Below are positions 49,001-58,000 of a stretch of 64,000 bases of DNA, piece after piece; position 1 is the stretch's first letter, and each line of letters starts with the position of its first letter. The stretch covers positions 3,844,001 through 3,908,000 of the forward strand of contig NC_134830.1 in the NCBI RefSeq assembly GCF_004210375.1, read 5' to 3'. The stretch is from Tachypleus tridentatus (lineage: Eukaryota; Arthropoda; Merostomata; Xiphosura; Limulidae). The translations under genes were made by a program, and so were the position numbers. The notes under the pieces are model-generated. The model searched no databases. It was not told where the DNA came from and was given only the letters and a program-made list of their open reading frames with translations.

Positions 49001-52000
49001 TGTGAAGTATAACAAAGACAAACTTACTGTAATCACACAGAAAGGAATGTTGTTACGACAGTCTGGACAGGTAAGCTCTGTTTCTGGTATTTCTGATCCA
49101 CAATATGGACACGGACTGTTAGGTTCTTCTTCTTCTATTTTTTGGGGTTTTCTAAAATTCAGAAAATATCTTAATCATACTTGTTTCTTAACCAACAATC
49201 ATGTCCAGATACTCACTTCTGTCCTGTGTATTCAGTTATAACCCTTCTTTGAACTATTTCAGAGTACACACAAAATATTGTCCAGTTATCTAACTGCTTA
49301 ACTTAAGAGGTACACCCATCACTTGTTATTTCTTTTTACAAAACTGATGATTGTTCAACAAAATATAATTACTGGAAACAAAAAGATGTTAATTAACCAC
49401 TTAACAGGATTCTATGTGTTTTTCTCAATGTAAAGAGGATTCTATGTGTTTTTCTCAATGTATTTTTATGAAAATAAATTAAAAGTGTGTGAACATTTAT
49501 CATACTATATTAAAATATACAAATAATACCTCAGAATTATACAAATAATACCTCAGAATTATACAAATAATTTAAATGTGTCACATACCTTCGCCCTTTA
49601 AATACAGGAATACACATCTTACAATATCTTATAACATTTGAGAGCTAAATTCAGAATTTAATCAAAGAACTTATGACAATAAAATGTCGCCTCAGGGTGT
49701 AGTTTGTAATTATAATTATTATAGAAGTCTTTTATTTTAGAAGGAAATATCAAGCAGTATTTCAATCTTAACTTCTCCGTGTCACATGATGTGTCTATGT
49801 TTCAAATTCTCCTTATGTTTAGTTTTTATAGCTTCTTCACCACTTATGTAGACACAATCTATAAATAAGTCCAAGGTGAAAAAATGTACAGTTTGATTGT
49901 CTTGACTTCTGTGGTTCCAGAACCATCAGAAGATTTTCCCAATCTGCACTAGAAGTTCCATTCATCTATCGTTAACTTTCAAGGTAGTTTTGTTAACTTT
50001 CAAGGTAGTTTTCAAAACTATGTCATCTTATCTGTCATACACGATCATCACAACTAAAAATTTGTTTTCAAGTTAAAACTTGCAATGCTTGGTTTGACAT
50101 TGTCAGCAACAGACAATAGTTTAGAGGTTTGATTGTATACAGTGATAAGAACAGATGACGCTCAGAACATTAAAATCTTTTAAACTCATTTAGAGCTTAA
50201 TTAGAATGACAGTTTGATTTTGTACATTCCATTTTACTTAAATATGCATTATTTATATTTTATATGTTTACTGGTTTTGTGGGTGGGGTGGACATAAGTT
50301 ACACAATGGACTATCCATTCTATACCTAACCACGGTCATCAAAACCTAGTTTCTAGCATTACAACATTCTATACCTAACCATGGTCATCAAAACCTAGTT
50401 TCTAGCATTACAACATTCTATACCTAACCATGGTCATCAAAACCTAGTTTCTAGCATTACAACATTCTATACCTAACCATGGTCATCAAAACCTAGTCTC
50501 TAGCATTACAACATTCTATACCTAACCATGGTCATCAAAACCTAGTTTCTAGCATTACAACATTCTATACCTAACCATGGTCATCAAAACCCAGTTTCTA
50601 GCATTAAAACATTCTATGCCTAACCATGGTCATCAAAACCCAGTTTCTAGCATTACAACATTCTATACCTAACCATGGTCATCAAAACCCAGTTTCTAGC
50701 ATAACAACATTCTATACCTAACCATGGTAATCAAAACCTAGTTTCTAGCATTACAACATTCTATACCTAACCATGGTCATCAAAACCCAGTTTCTAGCAT
50801 TACAACATTCTATACCTAACCATGGTCATCAAAACCTAGTTTCTAGCTTTACAACATTCTATACCTAACCATGGTAATCAAAACCTAGTTTCTAGCATAA
50901 AAAGTCTGCAGCCATACCATTTCAACACTAGGATAGGAAGATATGATAAAGCTTAGGTAACGATCATGTATAGAAACACAGCAAGGGGGTCTAGTGACAT
51001 CTATTAATGTGTTCCCATGTGGCATGTTGTATAACACAGTTAAATGAACACTACATTATACAATTAAAAATAAATTATATATGTTAAGATAAACAGTCAA
51101 TAGCTCAAAATGTGAGAAAAATTGAATACTGACAGAAAATGAAAGCATGCCCATTGTATTTTATAATTTTCAAAATTCCATTTCACTGTGTATTGATGAA
51201 ACAGATACAGTTAGGGTTAGAGAAGAAAAAATATATGATTTGAAACTTCTAAAAGTAACTTAGGAGGTTCTACAGGGTAAGCAAACAAAATAAGTACCAT
51301 CTAAAATAAAAGCATTTTTATTTTTAATGTAAAGAAATCATTTTGAAAGTAACATAAAATTTTATGATAAATTCTTTATTAGAAATTTTGATTTTTCATG
51401 TAGAACACACTAACAATGTTTACTAAAAGATAACATTCCCTGAATTCAGAGTTCTGGTATGTAAACAAATCATGAAAAATGATCAACTCAGAGAAAGAGA
51501 TGTTCAACTATTTCTATACTGAAACACAAACTATGTAAACATACCTTACAATAGCTTCAACTCAGAGAAAGAGATGTTCAACTATTTCTATACTGAAACA
51601 CAAACTATGTAGGCATACCTTACAATAGCTTCAACTCAGAGACAGAGATGTTCAACTATTTCTATACTGAAACACAAACTATGTAGGCATACCTTACAAT
51701 AGCTTCAACTCAGAGAAAGAGATGTTCAACTATTTCTATACTGAAACACAAACTATGTAGGCATACCTTACAATAGCTTCAACTCAGAGAAAGAGATGTT
51801 CAACTATTTCTATACTGAAACACAAACTATGTAAACATACCTTACAATAGCTTCAACTCAGAGACAGAGATGTTCAACTATTTCTATACTGAAACACAAA
51901 CTATGTAGGCATACCTTACAATAGCTTCAACTCAGAGAAAGAGATGTTCAACTATTTCTATACTGAAACACAAACTATGTAGGCATACCTTACAATAGCT

Positions 52001-55000: not shown

Positions 55001-58000
55001 AACATGCCTTACAATAGCTTCAGCTCAGAGACAGAGATTTCAACTATTTCTATGCTACTGAAACACAAACTATGTAAACATGCCTTACAATAGCTTCAAG
55101 CTCAGAGACAGAGATGTTCAACTATTTCTATACTGAAACACAAACTATGTAAACATACCTTACAATAGCTTCAACTCAGAGACAGAGATTTCAACTATTT
55201 CTATACTGAAACACAAACTATGTAAACATACCTTACAATAGCTTCAACTCAGAGACAGAGATGTTCAACTATTTCTATACTGAAACACAAACTATGTAAA
55301 CATACCTTACAATAGCTTCAATTTTCTTCTTGTATTTCTGGTCTATTTCATTTCTGTACTCTGGCCTCATAAGCATAGCAGCAAAACCAAATGAAGATTT
55401 TTTCAACCCTGCTCGATGGCATTCTATGACCGTTGATGTTAATATTGGAACAACATCTACAATAAATTATAGTTAAATATATAGAACACTATGACAGCCA
55501 ATGTTAATACATGAGCAACATCCACAATAAATTATAGTTAAATATATGGCACAACACAACTTTACTGATTCATTCATACTAGATAACAGTTCAACACAAC
55601 TTGAATGATTCATTCATACTAGATAACAGTTCAACAACACAACTTCACTGATTCATTCATACCAGATAACAGTTCAACAACACAACTTTACTGATTCATT
55701 CATACTAGCTAACAGTTCAACACAACTTTACTAATTCATTCATACCAGATAACAGTTCAACACAACTCGAATGATTCATTCATACCAGATAAAAGTTCAA
55801 CAACACAACTTTACTGATTCATTCATACCAGAAAACAGTTCAACAACACAAATTTACTGATTCATTCATACCAGATAACAGTTCAACAACACAACTTTAC
55901 TGATTCATTCATACTCGATAACAGTTCAACAACACAACTTCACTGATTCATTCATACCAGATAACAGTTCAACAACACAACTTTACTGATTCATTCATAC
56001 CAAATAACAGTTCAACAACACAATTTTACTGATTCATTCACACCAGATAACAGTTCAACAACACAACTTTACTGATTCATTCGTACCAGATAACAGTTCA
56101 ACAACACAACTTTACTGATTCTTTCATACCAGATAACAATTCAACAACACAACTTTACTGATTCATTCATACCAGATAACAGTTCAACAACACAACTTTA
56201 CTGATTCATTCATACTAGATAACAGTTCAACACAACTTTACTGATTCATTCATACCAGATAACAGTTCAACACAACTTTACTGATTCATTCATACCAGAT
56301 AACAGTTCAACTACACAACTTGAATGATTCATTCATACCAGATAACAATTCAACAACACAACTTTACTGTTCATTCGTACCAGATAACAGTTCAACAACA
56401 CAACTTTACTGAATCATTCATACCAGATAACAGTTCAACAACACAACTTTACTGATTCATTCATACTAGTTTACAGTTCAACACAACTTTACTAATTCAT
56501 TCATACCAGATAACAGTTCAACAACACAACTTTACTGATTCATTCATACTAGATAACAGTTCAACACAACTTTACTGATTCATTCATACTAGATAACAGT
56601 TCAACACAACTTTACTGATTCATTCATACCAGATAACAGTTCAACAACATAACATTACTGTTTCATTCATACCAGATAACAGTTCAACAACACAACTTTA
56701 CTGATTCATTCATACTAGATAACAGTTCAACAAAACTTTACTGATTCATTCATACCAGATAACAGTTCAACAACACAACTTTACTGATTCATTCATACCA
56801 GATAACAGTTCAACACAACTTTACTGATTCATTCATACCAGATAACAGTTCAACAACACAACTTTACTGATTCATTCATACCAGATAACAGTTCAACACA
56901 ACTTTACTGATTCATTCATACCAGATAACAGTTCAACAACACAACTTTACTGATTCATTCATACCAGATAACAGTTCAACAACACAACTTTACTGATTCA
57001 TTCATACCAGATAACAGTTCAACAACACAACTTTACTGATTCATTCATACTAGATAACAGTTCAACAACACAACTTTACTGATTCATTCATACCAGATAA
57101 CAGTTCAACTACACAACTTGAATGATTCATTCATACCAGATAACAGTTCAACAACACAACTTTACTGATTCATTCATACAAGATAACAGTTCAACAACAC
57201 AACTTTACTGATTCATTCGTTCCAGATAACAGTTCAACAACACATCTTTACTGATTCATTCATACTAGATAACAGTTCAACAACACAACTTTACTGATTC
57301 ATTCGTACCAGATAACAGTTCAACACAACTTTACTGATTCATTCATACCAGATAACAGTTCAACAACACAACTTTACTGATTCATTCGTACCAGATAACA
57401 GTTCAACAACACAACTTTACTGATTCATTCATACCAGATAACAATTCAACAACACAACTTTACTGATTCATTCGTACCAGATAACAGTTCAACAACACAA
57501 CTTTACTGATTCATTCATACCAGATAACAGTTCAACAACACAACTTTACTGATTCATTCATACTAGATAACAGTTCAACACAACTTTACTGATTCATTCA
57601 TACCAGATAACAGTTCAACAACACAACTTTACTGATTCATTCATACCAGATAACAGTTCAACACAACTTTACTGATTCATTCATACCAGATAACAGTTCA
57701 ACTACACAACTTGAATGATTCATTCATACCAGATAACAATTCAACAACACAACTTTATTGATTCATTCGTACCAGATAACAGTTCAACAACACAACTTTA
57801 CTGATTCATTCATACCAGATAACAGTTCAACAACACAACTTTACTGATTCATTCATACCAGATAACAGTTCAACAACACAACTTTACTGATTCATTCATA
57901 CTAGATAACAGTTCAACACAACTTTACTGATTCATTCATACCAGATAACAGTTCAACAACACAACTTTACTGATTCATTCATACCAGACAATAGTTCAAC

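Follow-up and report, generated by a model that had tools for sequence, protein, structure and literature searches.

A 52-unit minisatellite spanning an exon–intron boundary of WDR19 in the horseshoe crab Tachypleus tridentatus

The window analysed was a stretch of 64,000 nucleotides of Tachypleus tridentatus (contig NC_134830.1), which holds on its minus strand the 3′ part of WDR19 (IFT144, a cilia gene), with six exons placed (E1 to E6, Table 1). Once joined, these exons gave a reading frame that was open as far as the stop codon. Moreover, E3 was recognized as WDR19 by phmmer (E 1.8e-21 to 8fgw_C), while the translated pieces of five exons (E5 left out) matched a PDB WDR19 chain with an E-value of 4.3e-86. 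The presence of a WDR19 exon end on the minus strand, proposed by an earlier reading of the letters alone (the sequence-only reading), was thus confirmed. A gene encoding a UCHL-type ubiquitin hydrolase was found on the same strand (~23072-18403), of which seven exons were placed and the first was not found. Furthermore, tandem arrays made up 37% of the window (500-N gap excluded), which indicates that tandem duplication is frequent here, and they occupied 90%, 74% and 86% of WDR19 introns 2, 3 and 4, respectively.

Table 1. Exons, arrays and duplications located in the 64,000-nt window (positions counted from its first letter).
Feature	Positions	Strand	Description and basis
WDR19 E1	60296-60172	-	exon placed
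WDR19 E2	59634-59553	-	exon placed
WDR19 E3	55456-55306	-	151 nt, donor AAG/GTATGT; phmmer to WDR19 chains, boundaries, open joined frame
WDR19 E4	49151-49028	-	124 nt, donor ACA/GTAAGT; boundaries, open joined frame, PDB chain match
WDR19 E5	45130-45054	-	exon placed
WDR19 E6	43039-42931	-	exon placed
74-bp junction-spanning array	51483-55321	-	52 units; unit of 16 nt of exon end, donor and 58 nt of intron
Second junction array	46403-49096	-	crosses E4 donor; TRF, boundary scan
64-bp duplication	19761-19895	-	2.1 copies, across donor TGG/GTAAGT of UCHL exon 19950-19875
Decayed tandem copy of E3 acceptor and exon start	55490-55553	-	53 of 64 bases alike
43-bp array	55551-59232	-	87 copies, fills 90% of WDR19 intron 2; no exon boundary crossed, context only

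The array at E3 was reported by TRF with a period of 74, 52.1 copies and 97% matches. It begins within E3, 16 nt short of the exon end, and continues head-to-tail into intron 3, so that the range previously given for it, 51481-55456, corresponds to the array and the exon together. Cutting it at GTAAGG, which occurs 52 times within 55330-51400, yielded 52 units, the first of which holds the true exon end; among the 51 unit lengths measured, 34 were of 74 bp, 14 of 73 bp, and one each of 72, 75 and 76 bp. The estimate of about 51 donor copies was therefore right, as 51 lie past the real donor, 48 of them with the GT kept. The last 16 nt of E3, TTGAAGCTATTGTAAG, were found unchanged in 45 of the 52 units, and GAAGCTATTGTAAGGTATG had 46 exact occurrences (both within 55330-51400), while the donor read AAGGTATG in 49 units and AAGGCATG, with the GT lost, in units 4, 5 and 9. 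The sequence-only reading was right in placing the 16 exon nucleotides in the units. On a matrix of approximate metazoan donor frequencies, the donors of this array scored 9.0, the GTATGC form 8.5 and the GC form 3.1, and the GTAAGG located 5 nt upstream of each donor was a weaker alternative (5.1 vs. 9.0).

The similarity between exon and array, for which a few chance bases had been considered, was compared with a null of 400 positions taken from the array-free, non-exonic parts of both gene regions. The best downstream match of the E3 donor (±30 nt) spanned from -16 in the exon to +30 in the intron and scored 92, while no null position exceeded 30, so chance does not explain it. A 21-base pattern from the 74-bp unit had no exact match in viral_contigs, as expected. 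The array has the structure by which mirages are defined, its units spanning the exon–intron boundary and carrying AG/GT signals.

Regarding the variation along the array, 13 of the 52 units were equal to the consensus, including unit 1 at the exon edge, and neighbouring units were more alike than distant ones (Mantel r 0.22, P 0.001). In addition, several variants were bound to position: a TT-to-CC change appeared in 12 units, all between 31 and 51; a G-to-T change in 10 units, all between 36 and 52; and a one-base deletion in 16 units, 12 of which belonged to units 2-22. These local variants, together with the likeness of near units, indicate that the array grew by local copying. Five of the first 22 alignment columns (the exon-derived part and the donor) were variable, compared with 21 of the 56 remaining ones (Fisher P 0.29), and the donor copies are not clearly purged or protected. 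T>C changes (gene strand) dominated (10 of 21 column changes), an excess that was not clearly present in six other arrays, some of them sampled only partly, and that may reflect sequencing error or a mutational bias.

A total of 24 splice boundaries of the placed exons (11 donors and 13 acceptors) were then compared with their flanks, over 500 bp in each direction; two gene-end positions were scanned as well and left out of this count. Twenty of them scored at most 25, within the null, while the remaining four ranged from 69 to 118, against the null maximum of 30. These were the E3 acceptor and three donors, those of E3, E4 and UCHL exon 19950-19875, so that duplications crossed 3 of the 11 donors and 1 of the 13 acceptors. 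The array at E3, real as described, is thus one instance of a recurrent event, of which two further donors and one acceptor had been missed. At E4, five 91-bp units contain ACAGTAAGT, namely the true donor and four copies (48936, 48845, 48754 and 48663), whereas the next 25 units, 83-84 bp long, and the final part lack it; a search for GTAAG in this remainder gave no further occurrence. The UCHL duplication comprises one extra copy, with the donor intact. At the E3 acceptor, the AG of the copy has changed to GG, and this duplication is older.

In its 84-bp form (46403-48580), the E4 array lacks the donor and aligns gap-free to ~75 nt of E4; this form may derive from a duplication within the exon, or else from the 91-bp units via donor loss. 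Its units were also considered as coding repeats, which was not supported given that the exon-like frame has a stop in 4 of 24 units; another frame has a stop in none of the 24. Furthermore, a 33-bp array at 45867-46238 was rejected as an exon copy, since it lies in intron 4 with no exon link within 500 bp; the sequence repeated in it, TTTGGTAAGT, is a strong donor consensus.

Since arrays cover 37% of the window, occasional passive hits on boundaries are to be expected. The units of the 11 TRF arrays of both gene regions (overlapping rows merged; arrays outside the genes and the acceptor copy, which has no TRF row, excluded) were placed at random over the collapsed sequence. The expected number of donor crossings was 0.54, with at least three in 1.4% of the trials (P = 0.014), while at least three crossings of any boundary appeared in 9% of them. 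That donors are hit above chance is suggestive only, the test being post hoc and including the E3 case that prompted it. The arrays were not donor-rich in general. When the best donor score in one unit of each of 22 arrays was set, with the same matrix, against 500 dinucleotide shuffles, P fell below 0.05 for two arrays in the minus-strand orientation (0.018 for the UCHL junction array, 0.006 for an array at 1740) and for three in the plus-strand orientation. P was 0.052 for the array at E3 and 0.106 for the 91-bp units at E4.

At each of the three sites, the use of any later donor would lead to a stop codon. Beyond E3, translation covers ten codons, the split arginine included, before meeting a TAG, in agreement with the distance of about ten codons given earlier; at E4, a stop codon lies inside the second copy, and at the UCHL exon it comes after eight codons. 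Since a stop stands behind every later donor, the full protein needs the first one, which bears out the argument of the sequence-only reading that no other donor keeps the protein open. The first donor is most likely the one used, judging from the open frame, the order of transcription and the case of amphioxus discussed below.

The reading that we favour, at a probability of roughly 80%, is that of an intronic minisatellite of the mirage kind, in which a duplicated junction was amplified by unequal exchange or slippage and has been tolerated since the donor next to the exon remains functional. A single tandem duplication would have copied the end of E3 and its donor into the intron, its ends falling at two TTGA tetranucleotides, one in the exon, 16 nt short of its end, and one in the intron, 58 nt past the junction. 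Unequal exchange, suggested by the local variants, or slippage would then have raised the copies to ~52 units. Splicing would take place at the exon-proximal donor, transcribed first and bounding the real exon, and the later copies, being removed together with the intron, would cost little. The like events at the E4 and UCHL donors support this junction-duplication reading. TTGA is present both where the 74-bp block starts and in the sequence that follows the array, and ATG is shared likewise for the UCHL block, a microhomology that would fit slippage or microhomology-mediated tandem duplication; it counts only as a hint, because random blocks shared at least three bases in 6.8% and at least four in 2.2% of the trials.

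Arrays of this kind have been described in amphioxus as mirages (Adh3, the globins BflGb6 and BflGb9, troponin C and PGBD5), where minisatellite-like repeats span the exon–intron boundary and many units carry AG/GT signals, with splicing reportedly undisturbed (PMC3087553, PMC3902484) and RT-PCR data suggesting that it is normal (PMC3087553). The E3 units likewise span the boundary and carry splice signals, the splicing of WDR19 being deduced here from sequence, and the array belongs to this known kind as a very long example: it has 52 units, unlike the 6 and 3 units described for the two haplotypes of BflGb6. Instability of length, between haplotypes or somatic, is a further trait of mirages. 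Also unlike the amphioxus cases, two successive WDR19 exons and a second gene are affected in one 64-kb window. Mirage clusters evolve in concert, and their edges in amphioxus are reported to escape homogenisation (PMC3087553). The WDR19 array has local families of variants (Mantel P 0.001), but a point against the junction-duplication reading is that its exon-edge unit equals the consensus and does not show the edge pattern. Mirages appeared in two lancelet papers among the open-licence literature searched, and nothing on such arrays in horseshoe crabs appeared among the matches listed. In the Rogers model of intron gain, with cases in Drosophila, a tandem duplication around AG/GT also copies a splice signal (PMC2891723), as at WDR19; unlike in that model, no new intron is evident here and an existing one has been lengthened.

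Human IFI6 (6-16) offers a different outcome for a similar structure. The original paper on its donor minisatellite is reportedly Turri 1995. As in WDR19, a tandem repeat of donor-bearing units lies at the exon end; in IFI6 the downstream units are used, giving rise to isoforms (PMC4526556). Should several donors of the E3 array be used in the same way, WDR19 output would be reduced by the resulting isoforms or unproductive transcripts, with the acceptor-like TTTCAG of each unit defining a pseudo-exon of ~48 nt. Besides the IFI6 precedent, this reading is favoured by the 48 copies that keep the GT and score close to the true donor (9.0 or 8.5, vs. 3.1 for the GC form), by the 51 occurrences of TTTCAG and by the in-frame stop of the pseudo-exon. 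However, unlike in IFI6, later donors of WDR19 bring stop codons, as does the pseudo-exon, and no longer protein can result, which leaves multiple-donor use improbable.

It is less plausible still that the row of donors is useful, gathering many U1 particles at the start of the intron and thus aiding exon recognition or blocking early cleavage and polyadenylation within this long intron. The 49 intact donors out of 52 and the independent second row at E4 would suit such a role, but variability in the donor columns is not significantly lower than elsewhere in the unit (Fisher P 0.29), the donor is absent from most E4 units and the arrays of the window are not donor-rich in general; a decoy function of the copies is unsupported as well. 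Equally remote is an assembly artefact, the assembler having inflated a short duplication or blurred its sequence: the 500-N gap at 2472-2971, UCHL exon 19311-19254 with its apparent break of frame and the odd T>C excess speak for it, but the variants are ordered along the E3 array and many unrelated arrays occur in the window, although the copy number itself may be wrong.

If the junction-spanning minisatellite is tolerated as proposed, an intron can grow by kilobases from its own splice site with the protein unharmed. Mirages may also extend beyond lancelets, the only animals dealt with by the two mirage papers found. The interest of the E3 array lies in a gene that apparently must splice at the first of ~50 near-identical sites. 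As their strength hardly differs, 52 near-identical donors in a native gene make a natural test of donor choice by order vs. strength. A wider proposal, which we regard as rather doubtful, would be that in this genome tandem duplication across donors is frequent and tolerated since the first-transcribed donor wins, while a duplicated acceptor, coming ahead of the real one, persists only in broken form; minisatellites at exon ends would in that case offer a natural assay, across the genome, of order-based donor choice, and a main way for introns to lengthen. The broken acceptor copy at E3 agrees with this order rule.

Other observations were made in the window. In WDR19 intron 5, the reading frames at 43600-44511 are reverse-transcriptase-like and GIY-YIG-like, presumably resembling a Penelope element; the one stretch of them tested had no Pfam match. 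The 51-bp array (17 codons) at 33525-36056, in frame with the preceding open stretch MANAKLPLNYLYKFIYSLRG and with no Pfam match, is a possible coding repeat, and the longest array of the window, with ~150 copies of 37 bp (3108-8657), lies outside the WDR19 and UCHL genes. The frame change in UCHL exon 19311-19254, a single apparent one read by eye within 58 nt, is either an assembly error or a sign of a damaged gene. Finally, WDR19 and the UCHL gene lie near each other on one strand (18403-60296), and as both WDR19 and UCHL1 map to chromosome 4p in humans, this closeness may be an old linkage.
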